Source of the DNA: Salinicoccus halitifaciens
GTDB lineage: Bacteria > Bacillota > Bacilli > Staphylococcales > Salinicoccaceae
DNA length: 64,000 nucleotides
Direction: 5' to 3'
Assembly (NCBI RefSeq): GCF_021026095.1
Contig: NZ_JAJNCU010000003.1
Span: forward strand, 124,001 to 188,000
The notes under the pieces are model-generated. The model saw only the letters and a list, made by a program, of their open reading frames with translations, was not told the DNA's origin and made no database searches. Positions 1-15,504 of the stretch are shown here, one piece after another (positions within the stretch are counted from its first letter, which is position 1; each line of letters starts with the position of its first letter). The position numbers and the translations under genes are program-made.

Positions 1-75
1 ATAATAATATAAAAATATATCGGTGGTTTCACTTTTCTCAGTTATTCTGAGGGTTTTCCCCTAACATCTTTATAT

Positions 76-987
76 TTAAATCTCATTTTCATCTTCCTGA
101 TCATACGGATCAACATGGACATGGACGTTTCTCACTATATCATGTTCGTTGATCAGCTTTTGTTTTACATTCCTCGTGATTCTGTGACTTTCTTCCACAG
201 TGGTGTTTGGTTCTACCGAGATATTCATTTCCACTACCACATAGGAGCCATGAGAACGTGCACGCAGGTCGTCAACTTGGATCACTTTGTCCACAGACGT
301 GGCTGTCTTCTTCATACCAGTCGTCTCTTCTTCATTCAAAACCACTTCCAAAGTTATACTCACTGCTTCTTTGGCCAGCTTGAAACCCATATACATTATG
401 AAGATTGCGATACCTGCACCTGCAATGGGGTCAAAAAGACTTAAATATGGTATACCGTAATGGGAACCGACTAATGCGAGACCGACACCGACCAGTGCAA
501 CAGCTGACGATATTGCATCCGAACGATGATGCCATGCATCTGCAATAAGTGCAGGACTGTTCAATTTGGTGCCTGCCCGGAACTTATATTGGAAAAGCAG
601 CTCTTTGACGATCAACCCCAGTATAATAATATAGAGCACCATCATTGAAGTGACTTCACTCGTCGTACCCGTCCAGATTGATTCAATGGAGGTATACCCA
701 ATTTCAAAGCCGATTATAATTAAAATAATAGCCACAATCAGTGTTACAACATTCTCTGATTTTCCGTGACCGTATGGATGCTCTTTGTCCGGTGGTTTCT
801 GAGCAGCTCTGAGACCGATCATTACAGCAATCGAACTTACTTGATCCGAGAGAGAATGTATAGCGTCTGCAATGAGCGCACGACTGTTGCCTGCAATTCC
901 GCCAATAAATTTAATGATGGTCATAATGATATTAACCACCATGCTGATTATTGTAATCTTCTGAGCCTTTTTGTATCTGTTAGTCAT
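76..987 (-). CDS. Cation diffusion facilitator (CDF) metal efflux protein, CzrB/FieF-like
   Basis: A 303-residue membrane protein that probably exports zinc or another divalent cation in exchange for protons. It has about six hydrophobic segments and two CDF metal-site motifs: ADAIHSLSDQ near residue 41 and ADAWHHRSDA near residue 149. The C-terminal cytoplasmic domain (about 215-300) carries the HVHVDP motif that binds regulatory metal in this family. The ATG is preceded by AGGAGG with a 9-base spacer. A TATGAA-N5-TTCATA dyad sits just upstream of that ribosome site. No ArsR/CzrA gene lies in the window, so zinc control is inferred. The family is certain; the metal is not. Confidence 0.9.
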   Translation of the reverse strand: MTNRYKKAQKITIISMVVNIIMTIIKFIGGIAGNSRALIADAIHSLSDQVSSIAVMIGLRAAQKPPDKEHPYGHGKSENVVTLIVAIILIIIGFEIGYTSIESIWTGTTSEVTSMMVLYIIILGLIVKELLFQYKFRAGTKLNSPALIADAWHHRSDAISSAVALVGVGLALVGSHYGIPYLSLFDPIAGAGIAIFIMYMGFKLAKEAVSITLEVVLNEEETTGMKKTATSVDKVIQVDDLRARSHGSYVVVEMNISVEPNTTVEESHRITRNVKQKLINEHDIVRNVHVHVDPYDQEDENEI

Positions 988-1002
988 TTATAGAGACCTC
1001 CT

Positions 1003-1019
1003 TATGAAAATAATTCATA
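1003..1019. promoter_or_regulatory. Inverted repeat, candidate ArsR/CzrA-type operator
   Basis: Perfect 6-bp arms TATGAA and TTCATA separated by 5 bases lie immediately upstream of the ribosome site of the CDF exporter. Staphylococcal CzrA operators contain a similar TATGAA...TTCATA core, so metal-responsive repression is plausible. The motif is short and the region AT-rich, so chance is possible. Confidence 0.35.
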
Positions 1020-1150
1020 GAATTTATAAACTTCCGGTACACTGCCATAATTGTGGAGATGATGTATAATTTCATTAATAATATTTTTTTAATAAACGGG
1101 ATATATCATCAACAATCAGAATCTTTTGTCATATCAACCCTCTTCTTTAA

Positions 1151-2350
1151 TTATGCATATGAATGAAGTCCTGCAACGATCAGATTGATTGCAATAAGGT
1201 TAAAGAGTATCAGTACGAAGCCGATTACTGCCAGCCATGCAGATTTCTCCCCTTCATATCCTCTGTTCAGTCTCAAATGTAAGAAAATAGTATAAAACAT
1301 AAATGTGATGAAGGCCCAGGTCTCCTTGGGGTCCCAGCCCCAGAATCTGCTCCAGGCAATCTGTGCCCAGATGGCCGCAAAAAAGATACCACCGAGTGCG
1401 AATAATGGGAAACCGATTATGACCGAACGGTAGCCGATTTCATCCATCAAGTTCAAGTCCGCTTTGTTTGCAAGCGGCTTAACCAATGCAGTCAGTCGTT
1501 TTCTTAAGATCAGAAGGAGTATGCCGTATACGATCAGACCAAGGATGACTGACCAGATTACTGTGTTCAATGATTGGGAATTGATTACAGGCGGCAAATT
1601 GATGCCGGTATGGAAATGATCCGCAGGTTCATATTGATTATCTCCGATATGTTCGACCGGTACTGCGTCTGCGTAGTTGATGAGACTTGGCAGATGGTAC
1701 TCTGCAATCATCGTTTCCCCGCGCTGACTGGTATACATGAACTCATCACTGTAACCGACTGCACCTTTCATGACCAGCGTCGTTCCGATATAAACCAGAA
1801 CGATCACTATACCCACCATGATCATCTCCAGAGTACGTGCCCGCCACGACTTCTCATTTTGTGGTATCGCTTTGAGCAGATAGATCAATCCTGCAACCGC
1901 ACTCATGGAAAGGATACCATAGGATATTGATACAGTAATCACATGAATTGCAAGCCAGTTACTCTGCAATGATGGAATCAAAGGATTGACAGCGGTAGAA
2001 AACAAACTGCCGTAAGCGATCAAAAGCAATGAAACGGGAATCGCAAACAACCCCAGGACTTTCGTTTTATAATAATGATATGTAATCAAATAACCTAAAA
2101 TAATCATGATTGAAAACGTTGCGATGAATTCATACATGTTGGATACCGGTGCTTGTTCAGTTGCAACCCATCTCAATATAAAATAGCCAATTTGCATAAG
2201 GAATGCTATGACAGTCATTAAAATGGCCAGTTTCTCAGATTTCTTCTTCTCTGTTTTCACACTGAGTGCAAGTGGCACCAATGCAATCAATAGAATGAAA
2301 AATGCGCCCGTAATCAGACCGTTACTTATCGATAAAAGTGTTGATTCCAT
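1151..2350 (-). CDS. resC: Cytochrome c biogenesis protein CcsA/ResC
   Basis: A 399-residue polytopic membrane protein of system II cytochrome c maturation. With ResB it exports haem and ligates it to apocytochrome c outside the membrane. The haem-handling tryptophan-rich motif is present near residue 340 (WGWDPKETWAF), with conserved histidines in flanking helices. It follows resB by 2 bases, so the two are translated as one unit. The start ATG has GAGGAG 9 bases upstream. A resDE two-component pair, often downstream in Bacillus, is absent here. Confidence 0.95.
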   Translation of the reverse strand: MESTLLSISNGLITGAFFILLIALVPLALSVKTEKKKSEKLAILMTVIAFLMQIGYFILRWVATEQAPVSNMYEFIATFSIMIILGYLITYHYYKTKVLGLFAIPVSLLLIAYGSLFSTAVNPLIPSLQSNWLAIHVITVSISYGILSMSAVAGLIYLLKAIPQNEKSWRARTLEMIMVGIVIVLVYIGTTLVMKGAVGYSDEFMYTSQRGETMIAEYHLPSLINYADAVPVEHIGDNQYEPADHFHTGINLPPVINSQSLNTVIWSVILGLIVYGILLLILRKRLTALVKPLANKADLNLMDEIGYRSVIIGFPLFALGGIFFAAIWAQIAWSRFWGWDPKETWAFITFMFYTIFLHLRLNRGYEGEKSAWLAVIGFVLILFNLIAINLIVAGLHSYA

Positions 2351-2352
2351 AA

Positions 2353-3996
2353 TTAATTCTCCTCATCAGTATTTACGCTGTCATTTTCATCTTTGCCGTC
2401 TCTGTCAAAAATGTGATTATAACCGTTTTCTTCCAACACTGGATTGATCTCTTTTTTCAAACCAAAATAGTTTTTATTTGTATGGGCACTGATATTGAAC
2501 CCATTTTCATCATTGATCCATATACGTCTATGGTTGATGTATGAGCCGATAAAGAGACCGATAAGAAAGATGACGAAACCTGTCGCTATAAGTGGCAGGG
2601 TCAAGTCTTTTTTCAATGTTAGAACGGTGGCCCAGTGATTTTCATTTTCAACGAACTTGACACTGTATTCATTGTCCGGGGTGATGTCGGTTGAGCTCAT
2701 GATTTGCAGCAGACTAAGTTCACTGGAAGTATCATCTGTCACCTCAAATATAAACGCTGGATTTACCGGCGTGGGTGTCTCAGAAATCAATGCGCCGTTT
2801 TCATCTATTTCCAGGAAGTCCGGTGCATAAGCGCGTACCTCCACAGCCAGCCCCTCACCTACCTCATAAGTGCTTTCGAGATTATCCAGAGCGACAGTGA
2901 ATCGATCGCCGACAGTTTCTCCGTTACTGTCTTCCAGCTGGAAAGTCATGGACTTCATCTGGGTGTTATCGTAACTCGACTGATACAGTTCAAACTGCTC
3001 AAACCGGTATGGATGGTTGACTTGGAGGCTGTAATCCTCGACCACTTCAAGGTCGGGGGACGCTCCGACGACATCTAAATTCTGATTCTCATAGAACGTG
3101 ATGTCCGTCTGGTAATTACTGACGATGGTTTCATTGGTGTTCTGGACGGTCTCATCAAATACTGTACCTTCCTCTTCATAAATATCCACTATGAAGTCAT
3201 TGTTCTCCACATAATACTGGCCTTCAGTCTCAGGAACCTGAACCGTATCACCTTCGGTGATATAGATGAGCTCATCCACATACATCCCGGGGAAAAACCG
3301 TAACATGCTGCCGGCCAGAAGGAGAATCAGTCCTGTGTGGTTTATGTATGGGCCCCATCTTGAAAGCCTGCCTTTCTCAAGAAGATGATGTTTATTGTCT
3401 GATTTGACTTTATAACCTTTTTTCTTCAGTCCTTCTATGACCCCATCAGTATTCTTCGTGTTTGCCTGCTGCAAGTTTAAGCGCTGCCTCTTGTAGAAAG
3501 TCGGATGCTTTTTGGCACGCTGGTTCTTTAAAGATTTATACAACGGCACACCTCTGTCAATACTTGCTGCAATCAACGACAGTGCCAGCATGCCGATCAG
3601 CACGATGAACCACCAGGAAGAGTAAAGATTATGGAAGCCAAGCTCATAATACAGCCTGCCCAATGTGCCGTAGTTCTCCGTATAATATTGCAGCGGATCC
3701 GCACCGACGGGTATAAAATACTCTTGCGGGAAGATCGTTCCGATGGAGGAAGCAATTGCGATGATAAGAATGATTGCCACCCCGACTTTTATGGAAGTGA
3801 AGAAAATCCAGATCTTATCAAAAATACTCTTTGATTTTGTCTTTGATCGGATGGCACTGCCGTCATAACGCATGAGGTCTTTTATTTTCTTTTTATCATA
3901 ATCACTGTTGATCATCTTTCCGCAAGACTGGCACAGCTGGGTGCCCGGCGGATTAACATGACCACAGGACCCGCATTTTATCTCTTTTAATTCCAC
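2353..3996 (-). CDS. resB: Cytochrome c biogenesis protein ResB with N-terminal zinc ribbon
   Basis: A 547-residue membrane partner of ResC in haem delivery to cytochrome c. It begins with a short zinc ribbon of two CxxC pairs (CGSCG and CQSCGK, about residues 8-26). Transmembrane helices follow near 65-90 and 125-150, then a large extracytoplasmic domain, and a last helix near residue 470. The start is GTG with AGGGTGA upstream. It lies 11 bases after resA. The zinc ribbon is an addition seen in many Bacillota ResB proteins; its role is unknown. Confidence 0.93.
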   Translation of the reverse strand: MELKEIKCGSCGHVNPPGTQLCQSCGKMINSDYDKKKIKDLMRYDGSAIRSKTKSKSIFDKIWIFFTSIKVGVAIILIIAIASSIGTIFPQEYFIPVGADPLQYYTENYGTLGRLYYELGFHNLYSSWWFIVLIGMLALSLIAASIDRGVPLYKSLKNQRAKKHPTFYKRQRLNLQQANTKNTDGVIEGLKKKGYKVKSDNKHHLLEKGRLSRWGPYINHTGLILLLAGSMLRFFPGMYVDELIYITEGDTVQVPETEGQYYVENNDFIVDIYEEEGTVFDETVQNTNETIVSNYQTDITFYENQNLDVVGASPDLEVVEDYSLQVNHPYRFEQFELYQSSYDNTQMKSMTFQLEDSNGETVGDRFTVALDNLESTYEVGEGLAVEVRAYAPDFLEIDENGALISETPTPVNPAFIFEVTDDTSSELSLLQIMSSTDITPDNEYSVKFVENENHWATVLTLKKDLTLPLIATGFVIFLIGLFIGSYINHRRIWINDENGFNISAHTNKNYFGLKKEINPVLEENGYNHIFDRDGKDENDSVNTDEEN

Positions 3997-4007
3997 AACA
4001 CTTCACC

Positions 4008-4541
4008 CTATTCCGAAGTTGCAAGTTCCACAAAACGATAAATATCATCTATGGAAAGCTGATATTCCTGTTTATCAACGACCACTCCATTTTTATCGAT
4101 GGCAATCGTCGTCGGCAACGGTCCGATCTGATACGCTTTAGTCACATCCCGGTTACGGTCGAGCGCAATTGGATATGATAGTTCATCATCAAGACTCGCT
4201 AGAAATTGATTGATCTGCTGCTCGCCTTCAGATACGTTCACAGCGATCAGCTCATAGTCGTCATGCCCTTCATTATAAACTTCATTCATATCCGGCATTT
4301 CCTCGCGGCAGGGTTCACACCATGTACCCCAGAAGTTCAGGATGACACCTTTATCTTCATTGATGTCCGACAGTTGTACAGTCCCCCCGTCGAGTGTTTC
4401 GAGCTGGAAATCGACTGCTTCATCACCGACTTGTATTGCCTGTATATCCGAAGTTAAATTGAACCATAAAGTCACACCAACCAAAATGACAATACTTGAT
4501 ATGATAGTGATCCTGAGTATATTTCTTGTTTGCTTTTTCAT
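4008..4541 (-). CDS. resA: Thiol-disulfide oxidoreductase ResA
   Basis: A membrane-anchored thioredoxin-fold protein that reduces the apocytochrome c CxxCH cysteines before haem attachment. After one N-terminal hydrophobic anchor it has an AhpC/TSA-type fold with active site WCEPC (about residues 90-94). The family's conserved cis-proline is seen in GPLPTT. The reading frame could open at a GTG 9 bases upstream, but the AGGTG ribosome site is spaced for the ATG used here. First gene of the resA-resB-resC operon. Confidence 0.93.
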   Translation of the reverse strand: MKKQTRNILRITIISSIVILVGVTLWFNLTSDIQAIQVGDEAVDFQLETLDGGTVQLSDINEDKGVILNFWGTWCEPCREEMPDMNEVYNEGHDDYELIAVNVSEGEQQINQFLASLDDELSYPIALDRNRDVTKAYQIGPLPTTIAIDKNGVVVDKQEYQLSIDDIYRFVELATSE

Positions 4542-4999
4542 ATATTTCACCTACTTCACATTTTCCTATATATCATTCATAGTTAAATAGATCTTCACTA
4601 TCCCTGATTTCCCTTAACAACTTCTATGTCTACTTTAGAAAAACCTCCTAAATTAAATATTGTGTAATTCTGATATTGATATGGCAAAAATTGTTCAGAC
4701 CATAACATTAGATGATTATATAGTATATTTCTGCAGAAATTATCCAGATGCTCGGAAGTGAAGAAATAGTAGCCTACTTTAAAAACAGTTGATCTAATCC
4801 TTCATTGAAATTTAGTTAAGTTTTAGGTCTTTCAAACAGGTATTACTTCTTTCGAAAATGGAGAAATATTCTCAAGAGTTTTCCTTAGGGATTAACTTCC
4901 TCTTTAGTCATATTAAATACTTATTTTATGCATAATTTCTCGAAAATTTTAATCTAGCATGATACATGGCAAGTTTCTTGCAAAAGTCTAAAGAAGGAG
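4542..4999. other. AT-rich intergenic region upstream of the multicopper oxidase
   Basis: No convincing gene. A 26-codon open frame starts at 4681 but has no ribosome site and matches nothing I know. A small dyad (GCAAG-TTT-CTTGC, 4969-4981) lies 27 bases before the oxidase start. This stretch marks the change from the resABC operon to the much more AT-rich copper region, so an island boundary may lie here. I could not find a repeat of the guaA 3' end in it. Confidence 0.4.
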
Positions 5000-5008
5000 T
5001 TGTGTAAT

Positions 5009-6550
5009 ATGAGGAGAAATAAATTTTTAATCAGCATGTTTTTTCTAGCAGTAGTTGCTTTATTATCAGCTTGTACAAACAATGCTGGAGAAGCATCTGC
5101 AGAAAACGAAGGAATGAATATGGAAGGACACGATGAAAGTTCCATGGATGAAAGTATGGACGATCATTCCATGGAAGAGGAAATGGAGGACGAGTCTATG
5201 GATGGGCATATGGATCATGATAATGTGGTAAGTCTGAATGATTCGACAGGAGAGAATGAACTGGGCATCCCACCTTTACTACAAAGTGAAAGTGACGCAG
5301 AAACCGAGTATACAATACGCGCTCAAAAAGGGGAAACAGAAATATTTGACGGTGTTCAAACGAAAACATATGGCTATAATAGTTCATTTCTTGGCCCAAT
5401 GCTCCAATTTGAAAAAGGAGAGACAGTGACTATAAACTTAATCAATGAACTTGATGAAAATACCACTTTTCACTGGCATGGACTGGAAGTGGCGGGAAGT
5501 GAAGATGGCGGACCACACGAAGTATTGGAACCGGGCGATGAAGATACCATTCAATTTGAGGTAACACAGGAAGCTGCAACTTTATGGTTCCACCCCCACC
5601 CGGAGGGAGACACCTCTGAACAAGTATACAATGGTCTTGCCGGCTTAATATACATCGAAGATCAAAATTCAAAAAATCTTGAATTACCAAGTGATTATGG
5701 AAAAAATGATATTCCACTTGTTTTCCAGGACAAAATATTTGATGATGAAAAACAATTGAACTATGAAGCAGCGGCAAATGAAGACGGCACAGTTGGCGAT
5801 ACATCGTTAATTAACGGCACGTTGAACCCAAAATTGACTGTAGATAAAGAAAAAGTAAGGCTTCGACTGTTAAATGGCTCGAATGCAAGAAACTATACCT
5901 TTAAATTGAATACGGAAGATGATTTTGTACAAGTTGCAACGGACGGTGGCTTCTTGAATGAACCGGTCTCAATGAATGAGTTAACGCTCACACCTTCAGA
6001 AAGGGCTGAAGTAATTATTGATTTTTCAAAAATGGACAGTGATGAAAATATAGCTTTGATAAATGAAGATGGTGCTACGCTCCTGCCTTTTGAAATTACA
6101 GATCAAACAGGTAAAAATACAGAGATACCTGATGAAATGAATGACTTTTCAGTCACAGAAGAAGAAAAGAGCTTGCCGGTGACAAAAGAAATCGAACTGT
6201 TCGGAATGATGGACATGGTGACGATAAATGGTAAAAAGTTTGACCCTGAAAGAATTGACTTCACTCAGGAACAAGGTGTTACGGAAGTATGGGAAATCTA
6301 TAATAAACCTGATATGATGGGCGGGATGATTCATCCATTCCATATCCACGGGGCTCAATTTAAAATCCTTTCAAGAAACGGAGAGACACCACCCAAGAAT
6401 GAAAGAGGTTGGAAAGACAGTTTTTCCATCGCCCCGGATGAGACTGTAAAAATCGCCATTCAATTTAAAAATAAAGGCGTATATATGTTCCACTGTCACA
6501 TCCTTGAACATGAAGACAATGGGATGATGGGACAGGTCAAGGTAGAGTAA
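5009..6550 (+). CDS. Lipoprotein multicopper oxidase with Met/His/Asp-rich N-terminus
   Basis: A CueO/Mco-type laccase-like oxidase, probably oxidising Cu(I) outside the membrane. A lipoprotein signal ends in LSAC near residue 22. A roughly 45-residue segment rich in Met, His, Asp and Glu follows and may bind copper. All four copper-ligand motifs are present: HWHG (about 154), HPHP (about 195), HPFHIHG (about 442) and HCHILEH (about 495) with an axial Met. A TTG start 9 bases upstream overlaps the ribosome site AAGGAG, so the ATG at 5009 is preferred. It is convergent with the copA/copZ pair. Confidence 0.93.
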   Translation: MRRNKFLISMFFLAVVALLSACTNNAGEASAENEGMNMEGHDESSMDESMDDHSMEEEMEDESMDGHMDHDNVVSLNDSTGENELGIPPLLQSESDAETEYTIRAQKGETEIFDGVQTKTYGYNSSFLGPMLQFEKGETVTINLINELDENTTFHWHGLEVAGSEDGGPHEVLEPGDEDTIQFEVTQEAATLWFHPHPEGDTSEQVYNGLAGLIYIEDQNSKNLELPSDYGKNDIPLVFQDKIFDDEKQLNYEAAANEDGTVGDTSLINGTLNPKLTVDKEKVRLRLLNGSNARNYTFKLNTEDDFVQVATDGGFLNEPVSMNELTLTPSERAEVIIDFSKMDSDENIALINEDGATLLPFEITDQTGKNTEIPDEMNDFSVTEEEKSLPVTKEIELFGMMDMVTINGKKFDPERIDFTQEQGVTEVWEIYNKPDMMGGMIHPFHIHGAQFKILSRNGETPPKNERGWKDSFSIAPDETVKIAIQFKNKGVYMFHCHILEHEDNGMMGQVKVE

Positions 6551-6584
6551 AATCGAATATTTCAAATAAATGAATAAAGATCAT

Positions 6585-6617
6585 AAAAAATTCAGGAAGT
6601 GACTTCCTGAATTTTTT
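6585..6617 (+). terminator. Rho-independent terminator after the multicopper oxidase
   Basis: A 14-bp stem (AAAATTCAGGAAGT with its complement) has a very small loop and ends in a T run. It starts about 35 bases after the oxidase stop codon. Confidence 0.85.
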
Positions 6618-6705
6618 ATAGCTCATATGGAGTTATAAAAATGAAATTGGATTCGACTGCATAGTGGCAATATGTTCCAAACGTTCTACGCCTATTCAAA
6701 CTAAA

Positions 6706-6753
6706 ACCTCCCAAGTTCAAAGATCATCTCTTTCCTGTGTGAACTTGGGAGGT
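6706..6753 (-). terminator. Hairpin, probable terminator of the copA-copZ transcript
   Basis: Perfect 14-bp arms (ACCTCCCAAGTTCA and its complement) with a 20-base loop. Read on the minus strand it is followed by TTTTAGTTT and lies about 70 bases after the copZ stop. The long loop and weak T run make the call less certain; it could instead be the end of a lost mobile element. Confidence 0.55.
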
Positions 6754-6824
6754 GCTACTTTATATAGTAATGTCTTTTCTATTTTTTATTTTACCTGGTG
6801 TAAGATGGCTCCAACTCTTTTGGA

Positions 6825-7073
6825 TTAGTGACAACATGAGCAACTGTTGCCCGCCTTTTCAGATTCATCCATAACCTTGTAACCTGTATCTTCAATAGTA
6901 CTTTTAATTTCTTCTAATTTAACATCATTGTCATTATATGACACATCAACTTTTCCATCTGAAAGCAGCACTTTTACTGATTCAACTCCACTAATCTTGC
7001 TGACGTTCCCTTCAACTTTATTAGCACATCCACCACATGACATTCCTTGGACATTTAATGTTTTTTGTTGCAT
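6825..7073 (-). CDS. copZ: Copper chaperone CopZ
   Basis: An 82-residue heavy-metal-associated (HMA) protein that carries Cu(I) in the cytoplasm to the CopA ATPase or to a regulator. The metal site GMSCGGC lies at residues 10-16. The frame is open further upstream, but AGGAGG is spaced 7 bases from this ATG and only 1 base from the one two codons earlier. The C-terminus ends in an extra Cys/His cluster (CSCCH) not found in standard CopZ, which may bind additional copper. It lies 221 bases downstream of copA. Confidence 0.93.
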   Translation of the reverse strand: MQQKTLNVQGMSCGGCANKVEGNVSKISGVESVKVLLSDGKVDVSYNDNDVKLEEIKSTIEDTGYKVMDESEKAGNSCSCCH

Positions 7074-7120
7074 ATACATTCCTCCTTTTAATTTTCTATT
7101 AATGTAACACACTTTGTGCC

Positions 7121-7132
7121 TTACCGCGGTAA
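7121..7132. promoter_or_regulatory. 12-bp perfect palindrome between copA and copZ
   Basis: TTACCGCGGTAA is a perfect, GC-centred palindrome in an otherwise AT-rich gap, about 50 bases upstream of copZ. It is not a CopY box (TACANNTGTA) and not an obvious CsoR site. A regulatory role is a guess from symmetry and position. Confidence 0.25.
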
Positions 7133-7294
7133 AGTATTCAAATGTTAGAATAATGATTATTTTGCTGAACTTACAGAGCCACCCCCTTACAATCATTTAA
7201 GATTCATTTCATGGCAGAGAATCTGTTGAAATATGAGTACATGGTTCTCTTATATAATTCAAGTTAAAATTTATCTATCACTCCACTTTATCCT

Positions 7295-9802
7295 TCATTG
7301 AGCAACAGACGGGCCAACAGAAGGACCAACAGACGAATCATCAGACGAATCAACAGACGGTTTAAATCGTTTTAAACGCAGTGCATTGAGTAACACGGAT
7401 ATCGAGCTGAAACTCATCGCTGCTGCTGCAAACATCGGGCTCATCAGTGGCCCGCCGAATAGGAACAGAAGACCCATTGCAACTGGTATACCCGCTGTAT
7501 TATAAGCAAATGCCCAGAACAAGTTTTGTCTGATATTTCTGATGGTGGACTTGCTTAGTTCTACTGCAGTCGGAACTTCCATTAAATCACTTCTCATGAG
7601 AACAATGTCAGCAGATTCCATAGCTACATCCGTACCGGAGCCAATGGCAATGCCCACATCTGCCTGAGCAAGAGCTGGTGCATCATTGATTCCATCTCCC
7701 ACCATGGCTACTTTTTTACCTTCATCCTGAAGTTTTTCCACTTCACTTGCTTTATCTTCCGGCAACACTTCACTCATGACCCGGTCAATCCCGACTTGCT
7801 TGGCAATTGCTTCCGCAGTCCGCTTGTTATCACCAGTTATCATTGCCACTTCTATGCCCATCTCATGCAGTTTTTGAATCGCTTTTAAGCTGCTTTCTTT
7901 TACCGTATCTGCAACTGCAATAATCCCGGCAATTTCACTATTGATTGCTATATACATGGGTGTTTTCCCTTGATTCGCTAATTCATCTGAAGTGCTTGCC
8001 AGTGCTCCTAAAGCAATGTTTTGATCATCCATCAATTTCCTATTACCCAGTAACATATTTTTATCGTCAACCATCACTTCAATGCCGTGACCTGTTATTG
8101 CATTGAAATTTTTGGTTTTTTGTAAAGCTAAACCTTTATCTTCGGCACCATTGACTATTGCTTCACCAAGAGGATGTTCCGAACCTTTTTCAGCGGATGC
8201 AGCCAACATCAATAATTCATTCTCTGAAATCCCCTTAGCAGTAATAATATCAGTGACTTTAGGTTCCCCTTCTGTAATTGTTCCTGTTTTATCAAAAACT
8301 ATCGTTTGAAGTTTATGCGTGGTTTCAAGGGCAACACCGCTTTTAATTAATATACCATTTTCAGCGCCCTTACCTGTTCCAATCATAATGGAGGTCGGAG
8401 TCGCTAAACCAAGTGCACATGGACATGCGATAACCAACGTGGTGATGAAAACAGTTAAAGCAAAGAGTACTGACTGTCCACTTATAAACCATGCCAACCC
8501 TGCAAGGATGGCAAGTCCAATGACAATTGGCACAAAGTATCCAGAAATAATATCAACCAGCTTTGAAATAGGTGCTTTTGAACCTTGTGCATCTTCTACC
8601 AGCTTTATAATTTGAGACAATGCAGTGTCTTTTCCGACCTTAGTCGCTTCATACTGAATTGATCCATTTTTATTGATACTCGCTCCAATGATATTATCTC
8701 CACTGGTTTTTTCTACTGGAATACTTTCACCTGTCAACATGGATTCATCCACTGCAGTCATACCTTCAGTAACAACACCGTCAACAGGCATTTTTTCTCC
8801 TGGTTTAACAATGATTGTGTCACCAACCACCACTTCATCAATTGATATTTCTATTTCCTGTCCATTTCTTACTACAATCGCACTCTTAGGTGCGAGTCCC
8901 ATTAGCTTCTTGATCGCATCTGAAGTCTTTCCTTTAGTTAAAGTTTCCAAATACTTACCTAATGTAATCAAAGTTAAAATTACTGCTGCCGTTTCAAAAT
9001 ATAAATCATTTGCAAAACTCACATCACCGGAAAAGATCATAATTGCTGCAAAGATACCGTACACGAATGCTGCACCAGTACCGACAGCAATTAAAGAATC
9101 CATATTTGGATGTCCGCGAAATAATGTTTTAATACCTGATGAATAAATGCTTCTAGCCATATAGACTACAGGTAAAGTTAGTATGAGTTGTATCATCACA
9201 AACCCTACTGGATTGATTGCCGGGTCAATAATTTCAGGTAATGGTGCGCCTATCAGATGGCCCATCGCAATGTATAATAGAGGTGCAGTAAATATCGCGG
9301 ATATCAAAAATCTTTGCCAAAGACCTTTTATAGCTTGCTGTTTTTTATTACGATCTTCATCAACAGATTCTGATGAAGATATATCTTCATGGGCTTCATA
9401 ACCTGCATTTGATACTGCATCCAGAATATCTGAAACTGAAGCCACGGATGGATCATACTCAATATTCATTTTTTCTGTAGCTAAGTTAACGTGGGTATCC
9501 AACACGCCATCAAGTTTTCCTGTGGCCTTTTCAATGGTTTGAACACATGATGCACATGTCATCCCCTCTATCTTAAATGATTTTTGTTCTGTATCTGTTA
9601 AAGCCTTATACCCGGCCTTTCCAACTGCATCTTGGATTTCCTGTACAGAGAGTGCATTTTCGTCGAAACTGATATTCAGTTTTTCAGTAGCCATATTCAC
9701 GTTTGATTCTTTAACACCTGGCAACTTCTTGGTCGCTTTTTCGACTGTTTGTACGCATGATGCACAGGACATACCTTCTATATTAAATGATTTTGTTACC
9801 AT
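7295..9802 (-). CDS. copA: Copper-exporting P1B-type ATPase CopA with two HMA domains
   Basis: An 835-residue Cu(I) export pump. Two N-terminal HMA domains carry GMSCASC (about residue 10) and GMTCASC (about 79). Eight membrane helices follow. TGES marks the actuator domain, CPC the transport site (about 460), DKTGT the phosphorylated aspartate (about 502), then HP and GDGINDAP of the ATP-binding region. The C-terminus has a short Ser/Gly/Pro repeat. The ATG has AGGAG 10 bases upstream. The gene directly follows a decayed copZ copy in a former copY-copZ-copA-copZ operon. Confidence 0.97.
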   Translation of the reverse strand: MVTKSFNIEGMSCASCVQTVEKATKKLPGVKESNVNMATEKLNISFDENALSVQEIQDAVGKAGYKALTDTEQKSFKIEGMTCASCVQTIEKATGKLDGVLDTHVNLATEKMNIEYDPSVASVSDILDAVSNAGYEAHEDISSSESVDEDRNKKQQAIKGLWQRFLISAIFTAPLLYIAMGHLIGAPLPEIIDPAINPVGFVMIQLILTLPVVYMARSIYSSGIKTLFRGHPNMDSLIAVGTGAAFVYGIFAAIMIFSGDVSFANDLYFETAAVILTLITLGKYLETLTKGKTSDAIKKLMGLAPKSAIVVRNGQEIEISIDEVVVGDTIIVKPGEKMPVDGVVTEGMTAVDESMLTGESIPVEKTSGDNIIGASINKNGSIQYEATKVGKDTALSQIIKLVEDAQGSKAPISKLVDIISGYFVPIVIGLAILAGLAWFISGQSVLFALTVFITTLVIACPCALGLATPTSIMIGTGKGAENGILIKSGVALETTHKLQTIVFDKTGTITEGEPKVTDIITAKGISENELLMLAASAEKGSEHPLGEAIVNGAEDKGLALQKTKNFNAITGHGIEVMVDDKNMLLGNRKLMDDQNIALGALASTSDELANQGKTPMYIAINSEIAGIIAVADTVKESSLKAIQKLHEMGIEVAMITGDNKRTAEAIAKQVGIDRVMSEVLPEDKASEVEKLQDEGKKVAMVGDGINDAPALAQADVGIAIGSGTDVAMESADIVLMRSDLMEVPTAVELSKSTIRNIRQNLFWAFAYNTAGIPVAMGLLFLFGGPLMSPMFAAAAMSFSSISVLLNALRLKRFKPSVDSSDDSSVGPSVGPSVAQ

Positions 9803-9820
9803 TTATTATCAACTCCTTTT

Positions 9821-10045
9821 CTAATTGATTGATTCAGCTTCATAACCAATCTTCTTTATAGATTCCCTTAAACTATCTACTTGCCCGGACGGTTTCATCA
9901 AATTTAACTCTGGCTATTCCTTTTTTCAAATTGACTCTTGCATTTTCCACATCTTGCAAGCTTAGCAATGTCTCTTCAATTTTATTCACGTAGTGAGCAC
10001 AGTTCATTCCCGTAATCTTTAAAGTCCCTATTCCATAATTCTCAT
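9821..10045 (-). pseudogene. Decayed copZ paralogue
   Basis: Conceptual translation gives most of an HMA domain, with GMNCAHY in place of GMxCxxC, followed by a typical beta-alpha-beta body (INKIEETLL-like helix, ARVKFDE). A stop then interrupts it, and the end (SLRESIKKIGYEAES) is in another frame. The N-terminal ATG (10045, with AAAGGA upstream) is also out of frame with the body. So it has at least two frameshifts and has lost the second metal cysteine. It sits between the copY remnant and copA, where a working chaperone gene would be expected. Confidence 0.8.
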
Positions 10046-10051
10046 TCCTTT

Positions 10052-10374
10052 CTAAATATTTAAAATTAATTTTTCTATTGTCTTACCAGCATCCCCGTTA
10101 AAAATATTAGAGAAACTTTCATCCAAACTACTTTTCATAAATTCATTTTTCTTTATATTAGAGAAATAAGTATACTTTACTCTTCTTTTTCTGTACAAAG
10201 CATTCCTTTTTTAACAAGGCTTCCGATAAACGTTTTGATTGTTGCCGGTTTCCATTTTTTCTTCTGCTGTTAAACTTCTACAATATCATTGCTTATAACA
10301 TTGCTCTGCACTCAAACAACACGCATTACTTCCCATTCGAAATCGGTAATCTTAGAATCTATTTCAGAATGCAT
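10052..10374 (-). pseudogene. Decayed copY (CopY/BlaI-family copper repressor)
   Basis: From the ATG at 10374 (AGGAAG upstream) the frame reads ITDFEWEVMRVV, a stop, a short stretch, another stop, then KKWKPATIKTFIGSLVKKG and TEKE. This is the winged-helix core of CopY-type repressors. After a frameshift it continues with KYTYFSNIKKNEFMKSSLD and GKTIEKLI, as in the C-terminal half of the family. At least two in-frame stops and one frameshift rule out a functional repressor. The Cys-rich copper-sensing tail is absent. It is followed at once by the copZ remnant and copA. Confidence 0.85.
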
Positions 10375-10395
10375 AATCTTCCTATCTACTTTGTT

Positions 10396-10437
10396 TACAT
10401 TTGTAATCTATTTATATACATTTAGTTTACAACCGTA
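10396..10437. promoter_or_regulatory. Paired CopY operator boxes upstream of the copper operon
   Basis: TACATTTGTA at 10396-10405 matches the cop box consensus TACANNTGTA exactly. TACAACCGTA at 10428-10437 differs by one base. They are spaced 32 bases, about three helical turns, which is typical of paired CopY operators. They lie just upstream of the copY remnant start, so they mark the promoter of the copY-copZ-copA-copZ transcript. Confidence 0.65.
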
Positions 10438-10510
10438 ATCATAATTTGTCAAGATTTTTTCTATAATTCCTTCTCCTATCAATTGCTTACATTATTAACG
10501 ATAATATAGC

Positions 10511-10581
10511 GGTAGTAACCGGAATCGAACACGGCGATCAAGGCTTCGCAGACCTTTGCCTTAGTTCTTGGCTACACAGCC
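10511..10581 (-). pseudogene. tRNA-Cys-like pseudo-tRNA
   Basis: On the minus strand 71 bases align by eye with Bacillota tRNA-Cys: the D-arm TAGCCAAG...AAGGC, the anticodon arm AAGGT-CTGCGAA-GCCTT with a 7-base loop, a 5-base variable loop and TTCGATT in the T loop. The anticodon would be GCG instead of GCA. The T stem and two acceptor pairs are mismatched and no CCA is encoded, so it is probably not a working tRNA. It lies between the copper promoter and the integrase scar, which fits an imported tRNA copy. Confidence 0.6.
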
Positions 10582-10618
10582 ATGAATTTAAACTAAATAT
10601 TTAAGTGGATATAAGCAA

Positions 10619-10672
10619 AATGGATTAGTTGATTCATTTCAAATGGTTTCAAATGGAATCAACTAATCCATT
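10619..10672. terminator. Strong 17-bp hairpin in the copper island
   Basis: Perfect 17-bp arms (AATGGATTAGTTGATTC and complement) with a 20-base loop, followed by CATTTTTATTT on the plus strand. It could be a terminator or the remains of a mobile-element end. No gene immediately upstream on the plus strand needs it. Confidence 0.45.
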
Positions 10673-11299
10673 CATTTTTATTTATATGAATAGGACTGTG
10701 TTAGTCATTTCTTATACTATGGATTAGATTAGAATAAGCCTTCTGTTATGACATAAATTAAGAAACAATCGAAGAGTTTATTTTTATATACAATGTTTTA
10801 AAATTTAAAATATAGGGAAATCTATTTAATAAGTAAATAATTGTAAATTAATAGAGCTTGAAGCCCAGTGGGAGAGAGTAATCAAGCTAATGTTTTTAGA
10901 GGTGATAAAATTAATTCATTTAAATAAATTCAGGTAAATAATAAAGGATGAAAATAAAATGAAAAAATTATAAGTGAGGGGGGACTAATAGCCCTCTGAT
11001 ACATAATTATTGCTACATAGCGTCAAAATTATTCTGTTAATTCTTTATAAGATTAAAGCTGATTCTATTGTTACTTTAAGTACTTTGAATATAGCAATAA
11101 TATTAAACGATATTGATTCAACCTTATATTTTTCACTCATGATATTAAGGGTCGGAAATAAATTCAGCTGTTTATTCTTCAGCTGGGTTTATTTTTTTCT
11201 GAAAAAAATCTTTAAAATCTTTGGCAATTTTGAAGTTTCTCCCGTTGAAGGATATGAAAGGAGAAATCATCGCCCACCTTTGCAGTATTGCGAAGGGAG
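10673..11299. other. AT-rich gap with a second hairpin, no gene
   Basis: No supported gene. A 97-codon frame at 11010-11303 has no ribosome site and biased, low-complexity composition. A terminator-like hairpin lies at 11157-11199 (TCAGCTG...CAGCTG arms within flanking AAATAAA/TTTATTT, then a T run). It suggests that a transcript once ended before the sigma/integrase scar. Confidence 0.4.
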
Positions 11300-12109
11300 A
11301 TGACACGCATGATAGAATCCGATCGTACCGAATGGCAAATACGCTGTGCGTTTAATGCGTTCTGTAAACGGGTGTTAAAGAGTGCCACCATTGATATCTA
11401 CAATGAGCGGCGCCATCAACAGTCTAAAGAGATGACGTTTTCTGATTTAACACCTCAAGAAGCTCATCAGCTGTACTCCGTCGATCACTATAGTGAAGAC
11501 AATACAGAAAAGTTTCAACTTGCAGACAAGAGAATTACGACACATTTGCTTGCAGAAGCGATGCATACATTGCCAGAAGAAAAGCGCAATACAGTCCTCT
11601 TATACTATTTCCTACAACTATCTGATCAGGAAATTAGTGAACAGCTTAAGGTGCCACGTAGCACTGTACAATATCGACGGGCGAGCGCTTTAGACTCAGA
11701 TACATTACGTTTATTACAAGAATGGCAGGCTGTCCAGGAGAACCAATGTAAGACGCATTTCATTTTATCGTATAACGGCATGCCCACTCAAAAACATACC
11801 ATATCCTATGCGATCACTCGCTTTGCCAAGGCTGCAAATATCCATCGCATCAAAATTCATGGACTCAGACATTCCCATGCTTCTTTGTTAATTAGTATGG
11901 GGGAAAATCCTTTGGTGATTAAAGACAGACTGGGACATGAAGATATACAAACGACTTTAGGTACTTACGGCCACCTCTATCCAAACAGTAATTTTCAAGT
12001 TGCCGATAGATTAAGCAGTCTTGTTCAACTAAAAACAAGTGAGCATACCCAAATCGAACATTACAGCAGCAACCAATTTGTAAACACGACTTTTCAAAGT
12101 GTGCCATAA
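11300..12109 (+). pseudogene. Chimera of a Tn916 Orf7-like sigma factor and the C-terminus of a tyrosine integrase
   Basis: The first roughly 125 residues resemble the sigma-like regulator Orf7 of Tn916-family elements, including LLAEAMHTLPEEKR and the region-4 helix-turn-helix DQEISEQLKVPRSTVQYRR. The remaining roughly 135 residues are the catalytic C-terminus of a phage/ICE tyrosine recombinase: HGLRHSHASLL, GHEDIQTTLGTYGH and the nucleophile Tyr. The integrase N-terminal and first-Arg regions are missing. In such elements orf7, orf8, xis and int lie in that order, so an internal deletion fused the outer genes in frame. The start is uncertain (ATG 11300 or 11309). Integrase activity is not expected. 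Confidence 0.75.
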
Positions 12110-12131
12110 CTGTGCCACAGAAAATATAAAA

Positions 12132-12167
12132 GCCCTAAAAACCCAGTGTTACCAAGGCTTTTAGGGC
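12132..12167. terminator. Terminator between guaA and the integrase scar
   Basis: Arms GCCCTAAAA and TTTTAGGGC with a loop of about 18 bases, lying 9 bases past the guaA stop codon. On the minus strand it is followed by TTTTATATTTT, so it mainly serves guaA. Confidence 0.65.
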
Positions 12168-12175
12168 ACCTAATA

Positions 12176-13720
12176 CTATTCCCACTCGATCGTCGCTGGT
12201 GGTTTGTTCGTTATATCATATACGACTCTGTTGACGTGGTTGGATTCATTCACGATCCGTTTCGAAATCCTGTTCAGCACTTCCCAGTCGATCCTCGCGA
12301 ATTCGCTGGTCATGCCGTCGACGCTGGTCACGGCCCGGATGCCGATCGTGTAGTCATACGTCCGGTAGTCGCCCATGACGCCGACGGAGCGGATGTCCGG
12401 GAGTACGGTGAAGTACTGCCAGATTTCACGCTCGAGGCCCGCTTTCCTGATTTCATCCCGCAGGATCCAGTCGGTTTCCCTTACGATTTCAAGTTTTTCC
12501 TCGGTGATTTCACCCAGTATCCTGATGCCGAGCCCAGGTCCCGGGAACGGCTGTCTCCATACGAGGTGTTCTGCGATGCCGAGTTCGATGCCGAGCAGAC
12601 GCACTTCGTCCTTGAATAAAGTGTTCAGCGGCTCGATGAGTTCGAACTCCATATCTTCAGGGAGACCGCCGACGTTATGGTGGGATTTGATCGTCGTCGC
12701 CGTTTCGGTGCCGGACTCGATGATATCCGTGTACAGCGTACCTTGTGCAAGGAAGTCGACTTCTGTCAGCTTCGCCGCTTCATCGTTGAATACGTAAATG
12801 AATTCATTGCCGATGATCTTGCGTTTCTGCTCAGGATCGGAAACGCCCTTCAGCTTTTCCATGAAACGGTCTTTGGCATCGATTTTGATGATGTTCATAT
12901 TGAAGCCTTCACCGAACTGCTCCATCACCATCTCGCCCTCGCCTTTACGCAGAAGGCCGTGGTCAACGAAGATGCACGTCAGCTGATCGCCGATCGCTTT
13001 GTGCAGGAGCACTGCAGTGACGGATGAGTCCACGCCGCCGCTCATCGCACACAGGACTTTCCGGTCACCGACCTGTTCGCGGATCTTCTCGACTTCAATG
13101 TCGATGAAGTTCTCCATCGTCCATTCGCCTGTACATCCTGAGATGTTCCTGATGAAGTTCTTCAGGAATGTATCACCGTTCAGGGAATGTTTGGATTCCG
13201 GGTGGAACTGTACACCGTACAGCGGTTTCTCATCGTGTCCAATTGCTGCATACTCGCAGTTTTCGGTATGCGCGATTTTACGGAAGCCTTCCGGTATCCG
13301 GGTCACTTTATCGCTGTGGCTCATCAGCATGATTTCATGCGTGTTCAGCCCTTTGAAGATTTCTTCTGCCGGGTCCAGGGTGAGGTCCGTTGCACCGAAC
13401 TCCCTGCCCGGGGAAGATACGACTTCCCCGCCGAGGGTGTCGACCATCAGCTGCATGCCGTAGCAGATGCCGAGGACCGGGACGCCGAGGTTGAAGACCT
13501 CCGGATCCACTTTGTAGGCATCGTCGTTGTAGACGCTCTTCGGCCCGCCGGAAAGGATGATGCCTTTCGGATTGAGTTCTTTGATTTCTTCTATTAAAAT
13601 GCTCGGATTGTGCAGTTCGCTGTATACGCCAAGGTCACGGATCCTCCGCGTGATCAGCTGGTTGAACTGGCTTCCAAAATCTATTACTAAAATAAGTTCC
13701 TGTTCTTTTGCCATATCCAT
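12176..13720 (-). CDS. guaA: GMP synthase (glutamine-hydrolysing)
   Basis: Converts XMP to GMP using glutamine and ATP. The 514-residue protein has a class I amidotransferase domain (catalytic Cys in GICYGMQLM, about 88; the His/Glu pair in HPE), then an ATP pyrophosphatase domain with SGGVDSS (about 231), and a dimerisation domain ending in PPATIEWE. It lies 17 bases downstream of guaB and shares its riboswitch-controlled transcript. The 3' end of guaA is a known hotspot for genomic islands, and an integrase remnant lies 67 bases beyond it. Confidence 0.98.
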
Positions 13721-13737: not shown

Positions 13738-15285
<1,548 letters not shown>

Positions 15286-15358
15286 TTATCTCATAGTAGG
15301 TTTTTTTAAGGAAAACCCTAGAAACTCACAATCCATATTATTGTGATTATATGAAATA
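15286..15358 (-). ncRNA. Guanine (purine) riboswitch aptamer in the guaB leader
   Basis: On the minus strand the purine aptamer elements appear in order: CATATAATC closing P1, the P2 arms CACAAT/ATTGTG around AATATGG, the junction AGTTTCTA, the P3 arms GGGTTT/AAAAACC, and ACTATGAG completing P1. The specificity position in ACTATG is C, the guanine class. A hairpin (AACAATTAA...TTTAATTGTT) directly downstream may be the expression platform, though no T run follows it. It lies about 80 bases before guaB. Confidence 0.85.
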
Positions 15359-15504
15359 AATAATTACTTATGATAACAAAAATCATGATGGTATACAACT
15401 TTATTGTACATGATTATAGTACAAATATCTCCCTTGTGAAATGAGTAAAATTCGAGGGGCGGGGGTAGATACATAATAATACATTAATGACCGGAGGCAT
15501 CGAT

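Follow-up and report, generated by a model that had tools for sequence, protein, structure and literature searches.

The window, by which we mean the whole stretch of 64,000 nucleotides of Salinicoccus halitifaciens DNA analyzed here, carries on its minus strand a decayed tRNA-Cys gene (the relic) followed in order by a promoter, a CopY operator, a copY pseudogene, a copZ relic, copA, and a copZ-like gene (Table 1). By their sequences these genes are recognizable as a CopY-type copper operon in which copA is intact, copY and the first copZ persist as relics, and one operator is present. The 16-base CopY operator consensus was taken from an excerpt of PMC7253601, and a scan of the window with the full consensus found no operator upstream of the relic; because the only operator sits between the relic and copY, the tRNA lies outside the copY transcript here. 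The place where intact loci carry CopY operators is occupied by an inverted repeat, and neither this repeat nor the 241-base region of the relic has a match in five other genomes of the genus. A further copY in the same island (contig C5, 115844–116287) may have taken over control after the head of the operon decayed.

Table 1. Features of the copper operon and of the adjoining end of the island, listed from right to left in window coordinates.
Feature	Position	Strand	Basis
15-bp guaA 3′-end repeat at the right boundary of the island	12173–12187		second copy at C5 108867–108881
Inverted repeat upstream of the relic	10612–10679		54-base stretch against its own reverse complement, 87%
Decayed tRNA-Cys gene (relic)	10510–10581	−	Rfam and tRNA-Cys covariance models, alignment
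Copper-operon promoter of sigma-A type (TTGACA-17-TAAACT), located downstream of the relic	10424–10452	−	promoter scan; aligned with the promoter of locus L065
CopY operator RNYKACANNTGTMRNY	10393–10408	−	sole full consensus match; chance expectation for the 64-kb window 0.15
copY pseudogene, in-frame stops and broken frame	10064–10374	−	alignment
copZ relic, 59% identity with Exiguobacterium CopZ across 46 aa	9885–10025	−	alignment
copA, intact copper P-type ATPase, 835 aa	7295–9802	−	open frame and homology
copZ-like copper chaperone gene, open frame	6825–7196	−	open frame and homology

The operon lies in a low-GC island of 27.3 kb in the 3′ end of guaA (C5 108867 to 136187), of which window positions 1–12187 form the right part. 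The 15-mer ATACTATTCCCACTC, which is the guaA end on the other strand, occurs in two copies separated by that distance. In 2-kb steps the GC content is 0.34–0.48 over C5 108–136 kb, 0.44–0.56 in the 24 kb leftward, and 0.51 just to the right, and the left GC boundary is not sharp. Of the window's 15-mers, only 13 are found again on the same strand within 40 kb leftward; nine of these come from the copper region (~10198–10408). An open frame that adjoins guaA (11288–12109) joins a sigma-70 region-4 domain to a C-terminal tyrosine recombinase part and is probably a deletion fusion of Tn916/Tn5801-type genes. Tn5801-like islands insert at the guaA 3′ end with 11-bp repeats (excerpt of PMC4844618); as described there, they share with the present island the guaA 3′ insertion, the presence at guaA of an integrase gene or what is left of one, and short direct repeats, whereas the present island differs in its copper cargo, in the 27.3-kb spacing of its repeats, and in having its recombinase remnant joined in frame to the domain of a sigma factor. 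To the right of the island, a purine riboswitch (15274–15374, minus strand) stands upstream of an IMP-dehydrogenase-like gene (13738–15222, named by eye).

Identity and decay of the relic

The initial annotation had reported a tRNA-like sequence in the copper region at 10511–10581, without a strand; such a sequence is indeed present, and spans 10510–10581 on the minus strand. The covariance search that had been proposed as a check yields a match of 33.5 bits to the Rfam tRNA model, above the gathering threshold of 29 (E = 0.0035 for the 64-kb window), and this is one of two gathering-level Rfam matches in the window; ARAGORN reports no tRNA in the same 64 kb. A tRNA-Cys covariance model (R1), built from an alignment (A4) of 22 intact tRNA-Cys genes, scores the relic at 58.7 bits (E = 1.2e-12, 351 kb searched), and intact copper-operon copies score 94–98 bits, three of these copies being part of the model. 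The significant R1 match places the relic, as a pseudogene, in the tRNA-Cys lineage; since R1 is not Cys-specific (the tRNA-Gln of locus L077 scores 64.7), the Cys assignment is taken from alignment with tRNA-Cys genes and from synteny. Among the 57 tRNA matches in the 2.68-Mb genome (11 contigs), the relic is the weakest (33.5 bits vs. 50.1 for the next).

The genome's own tRNA-Cys, with anticodon GCA, lies in a large tRNA cluster on contig C11 of that assembly and is identical to the relic at 49/73 positions. The nearest tRNA-Cys genes are those of two copper loci, L078 and L079 (59/73 and 58/73); outside copper loci, a Halobacillus gene reaches 57/73 and four genes reach 56/73, two of the four standing beside other tRNA genes, and the Exiguobacterium copper-type tRNA-Cys reaches 54/73. 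The tRNA-Cys type named in the initial annotation holds; the relic is unlike the resident gene and closer to copies on mobile elements (59/73 with the tRNA-Cys of a plasmid copper operon), and its ancestry, as read from these comparisons, is decided by synteny and not by the weak tRNA identity alone.

The relic retains an intact anticodon stem, and its anticodon position reads GCG, as had been reported, where the intact genes have GCA. Its discriminator is G in place of T/U73 (T in 22/22 aligned intact genes), two acceptor-stem pairs are broken in the R1 alignment, and the T stem carries one extra base; the paired acceptor and T stems, the D-loop GG, the anticodon, and the discriminator of a functional tRNA-Cys are thus all lacking. 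The D arm had been described as kept, which is true of the D stem and not of the D-loop GG, which is gone; the T stem had been called mismatched, and it is faulty, the fault being best read as a one-base insertion. CCA is absent as noted initially, and this is uninformative as to decay because 19/24 intact tRNA-Cys genes checked are also without it; it is encoded neither in the genome's own tRNA-Cys nor in five copper-operon copies. At the 34 columns that are invariant in the 22 intact genes, the relic is changed at three (a D-loop G, the third anticodon base, and the discriminator), and a leave-one-out control on the intact genes gives 0 changes in 18, 1 in 3, and 2 in 1.

The GCA anticodon and U73 are what we take to be the identity elements of cysteinyl-tRNA synthetase (CysRS), and their loss should abolish recognition by that enzyme. 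Folding of the relic as a free RNA is no better than that of shuffled sequences (z = −0.62). No promoter-like site scoring at least 9/12 occurs within 200 bases upstream of the relic, and two 9/12 sites occur at 228 bases and more. The relic itself is an ordinary pseudogene and probably has no function.

Intact tRNA-Cys genes in the copper operons of relatives

A blastn search of plasmids with the relic region returned 24 records, of which the best 20 were used, and the matches are tRNA-Cys genes; a second plasmid search with one of these tRNA-Cys genes returned 106 records, of which the best 60 were used. Homologues on mobile elements, which the initial annotation had proposed looking for, accordingly exist as plasmid tRNA-Cys genes. 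Among the matches listed, plasmid p1 of Exiguobacterium acetylicum (L065) carries a tRNA-Cys 52 nt upstream of copY-copZ-copA. Genome contigs scanned with the L065 CopY gave five loci, with the same tRNA-Cys in two and without it in three; the two, from an uncultured Planococcus and from Tetzosporium hominis (L073 and L074), have CopY proteins that are 99% identical. The order in L065, L073, and L074 is a TTGACA-17-TAAACT promoter with CopY boxes, tRNA-Cys, ribosome-binding site, and copY. In L065 this promoter, directly ahead of the tRNA, is the better of two promoter-like sites in positions 2700–3300.

The closest relatives are two further loci, L078 (genome G430) and L079 (genome G497), from genomes of the same taxonomic order; they have paired operators, then tRNA-Cys, a second TTGACA promoter, and copY. 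The window is collinear with both at 70%, tRNA included (10596–8408 with L078 456–2659 over 2234 aligned columns; 10596–8394 with L079 1256–3453 over 2239 columns). The second promoter of L079 bears a full-consensus operator, whereas the corresponding boxes of L078 do not match the consensus; in L079 the −10 element of the first promoter is weak (TAATCT), and the promoter scanner did not list this site. Ahead of the intact tRNA-Cys there are one full-consensus CopY operator in L065 and two each in L074, L078, and L079, the second box of L065 being one position off the 16-base consensus and hence uncounted. In total each of these four loci has 2–3 operator matches against 0.01–0.03 expected. 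The tRNA and the last operator ahead of it are 11 nt apart in L074, and in both L078 and L079 they are 41 nt apart.

Upstream of the intact tRNA-Cys, both loci hold a second, more decayed one (L079 1039–1102, 29.3 bits, E = 8.5e-5 with R1; L078 241–306, 19.8 bits, E = 0.03, a weak match). The segment with this second decayed tRNA and the first promoter matches window 10574–10396 in both loci, and the tRNA-plus-promoter unit seems for that reason to have been duplicated. The G497 contig (C11; loci L170 and L171) repeats itself exactly at a distance of 16,952 bases (16,885/16,885 identical) and holds replication and mobilisation-like genes, named by eye from translations, from which it is read as one 16.95-kb plasmid assembled as a head-to-tail dimer, its two copper loci counting as one.

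All five copper copies of tRNA-Cys keep U73, and the GCA anticodon is kept as well. Among the 22 aligned intact genes of all contexts, 99.3% of 440 stem cells are paired and 11 of 20 pairs show changes on both sides; this alignment includes types from chromosomal clusters, and the pairing speaks for tRNA-Cys generally.

The arrangement is rare. A CopY search of 157 genomes of the order gave 44 matches in 39 genomes at 1e-15, and one of 398 genomes of the class gave 50 matches in 46 genomes at 1e-25; with three matches common to both, 91 CopY loci were available. Their surroundings or upstream flanks were scanned for tRNA over ~1.5 kb, as far as the contig reached (90 with ARAGORN, all with R1). 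A tRNA-Cys was found at 4/91, namely G430, G497 twice (one plasmid), and the window's relic. A general rule that copper operons carry tRNA-Cys was rejected, 87/91 CopY loci being without it; L116 has an unrelated tRNA-Thr, and L125 a partial tRNA-like match at the edge of the locus. A plasmid search with the L079 CopY returned 112 records, which stand outside the 91 loci.

A probable copper-switched tRNA-Cys and its alternatives

The relic is very probably a decayed tRNA-Cys gene that formerly headed a mobile CopY-type copper operon, which now sits in the guaA island, and its intact relatives look copper-switched. Its homology, its synteny, the operator sites, and its decay are established at the level of sequence, and on gene order (tRNA, CopY promoter, copY, copZ, copA) the tRNA-Cys was part of the copper operon, a point that the initial annotation had missed. 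That the intact tRNA-Cys genes are under copper control is likely, and copper induction would be expected because the tRNA is placed after CopY operators: copper would release CopY from the operators ahead of the tRNA, and tRNA-Cys would rise together with copY-copZ-copA. After the operon had entered this chromosome, its leading genes (tRNA, copY, and copZ) would have decayed, with copA and the second copZ staying open; the switch would have lapsed in the window, where the tRNA would no longer be charged as tRNA-Cys, no operator lies upstream of it, and copY and copZ are broken.

That the extra Cys-tRNA would serve the bulk synthesis of Cys-rich copper proteins, and that this supply is the purpose of the arrangement, is a proposal with about even chances. 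Cys makes up 14.5% of the four-helix copper protein, 3.8–4.5% of CopY, 2.8% of CopZ, and 4.8–5.7% of the copZ-like proteins, with a background of 0.62% over 33 window ORFs. Counting against it, CopA is the largest product and is not Cys-rich (0.7–0.8% Cys), and most CopY loci do without a tRNA-Cys.

The tRNA of the copper operons could instead be a leader device, its excision by RNase P and RNase Z determining the operon mRNA's 5′ end, its stability, or its timing, and Cys decoding being secondary; in L065, L073, and L074 the tRNA follows the operator promoter and precedes copY, and a copY message from that promoter must indeed carry or shed it. This is unlikely, however, as the second TTGACA promoter after the tRNA in L078 and L079 leaves copY with no need of the tRNA, and as U73, the GCA anticodon, and the stem pairing are conserved. 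Considerably less probable is the suggestion, made in the initial annotation, that the relic is a still functional non-coding or decoy RNA. Its model is tRNA-Other of Bacillus cereus ATCC 14579, which an excerpt of PMC3399842 describes as a pseudo-tRNA that lies at a genomic island and whose regulation is linked to a metal, its expression being tied to iron with putative Fur sites; the intact D and anticodon stems of the relic fit such a role. By that same description tRNA-Other is expressed and thought regulatory, whereas no promoter stands close to the relic, and the intact relatives of the relic have the look of genuine tRNA-Cys genes. Evidence for a decoy was not found in the promoter scan of the 200 bases upstream or in the folding comparison, and the absence of the region from the five other genomes of the genus and the decay of the adjoining copY and copZ also speak against it.

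Least probable of all, to the point of being nearly negligible, is that the relic is the scar of an attachment site, as the initial annotation had also raised. The frame with the tyrosine recombinase remnant starts 0.7 kb from the relic, yet it adjoins guaA, whose 3′ end is the sequence that recurs 27.3 kb away and, as a 15-bp repeat, bounds the island. With up to three mismatches allowed, the 3′ 20-mer of the relic occurs only once in the genome, and collinearity with intact copper loci begins just ahead of the tRNA and runs on through copY. The repeats and the single-copy relic end indicate that the attachment site is most likely guaA and not the tRNA.

A copper-controlled tRNA-Cys operon of the kind preferred here shares with the CopY/TcrY-controlled cop operon of Gram-positive bacteria the copY-copZ-copA order, the TACAnnTGTA operators, and the copper ATPase, and differs from it in the tRNA-Cys gene at the head, which in intact relatives stands behind the operators. 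In titles and abstract openings, a literature search (in which "CopY" also matches the ordinary word "copy") found no CopY- or copper-controlled tRNA-Cys. Genes for tRNAs are generally regarded as housekeeping genes; one that is controlled by a metal repressor and travels with metal-resistance genes would offer a direct and testable example of mobile DNA tuning translation supply to its cargo. The value of the relic is that it pointed to this arrangement, which suggests that mobile DNA can carry its own copper-switched tRNA.

Orphan tRNA-Cys genes beside other cargo

Mobile elements of Bacillota may, on a tentative reading that we hold to be somewhat short of even odds, carry dedicated, stress-switched tRNA-Cys genes matched to Cys-rich cargo, both under CopY at the head of copper operons and directly upstream of Cys-rich phospholipase-A2-like genes with a sigma factor and glutaredoxin nearby; if true, the scarcest decoding capacity would arrive on the same element as the proteins that depend on it. 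On plasmids, a tRNA-Cys match lies directly upstream of a Cys-rich phospholipase-A2-like gene in at least 9 of 12 records with such a protein, all nine from Bacillus, and the Geobacillus plasmid L006 is a further case. The name phospholipase-A2-like is given by motif, since Pfam phospholipase A2 scores do not reach the curated cut-offs and one protein of the six has no score at all; these proteins have 4.4–5.9% Cys. Plasmid tRNA clusters of Niallia, Peribacillus, and Latilactobacillus also carry tRNA-Cys, but in clusters of 21–27 tRNAs, unlike the genes discussed here, which stand alone beside cargo genes.

At six loci (L006, L007, L025, L026, L027, and L032), on plasmids and in genomes of the window's family, an intact orphan tRNA-Cys stands directly upstream of a phospholipase-A2-like gene, and ARAGORN confirms the tRNA-Cys on L007 and L032. 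A profile search of the order gave 30 phospholipase-like matches in 20/157 genomes, with tRNA-Cys at five loci; the four best matches have it directly upstream, their rank not being independent evidence because the profile (A3) was built from proteins beside tRNA-Cys that include these four loci, and L037 has it downstream. In 398 genomes of the phylum there were two matches, both without a tRNA in the stretch read. Genes for a sigma factor, glutaredoxin, and YvrJ recur near the orphan tRNA-Cys genes, one such locus being without the sigma factor; in L026 the sigma factor takes the form of two short ORFs that resemble SigO/RsoA.

A general rule that an orphan tRNA-Cys precedes a Cys-rich gene does not hold everywhere. 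In Priestia the neighbor is an S8 peptidase with 0.4% Cys, the tRNA-Cys on the Priestia megaterium plasmids L005 and L008 (~5982–6093) ending 26–27 nt before the peptidase gene, and in Halobacillus amylolyticus it is a YvrJ gene with 0% Cys. On pBS72 the tRNA-Cys lies within the sigma-factor/glutaredoxin run, and on five further plasmids it stands beside other genes or among other tRNA genes.

A relic of the sigma factor, glutaredoxin, and phospholipase-like module was also considered for the window, gave weak matches only, and was dropped once the Exiguobacterium copper locus had been found. Among the matches listed, the best phospholipase-like one in the window (E = 0.005) lies inside guaA and is taken as chance, and that of the sigma factor to the sigma domain of ORF 11288–12109 (E = 0.012) reflects general family likeness. 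A phage origin of the relic was likewise set aside: phage records gave no match to a 201-base region around the relic or to a phospholipase-like protein, and viral contigs encoded no relative of the L079 CopY or of the phospholipase-like protein. With the intact tRNA-Cys of the Geobacillus plasmid as query, six phage records match.
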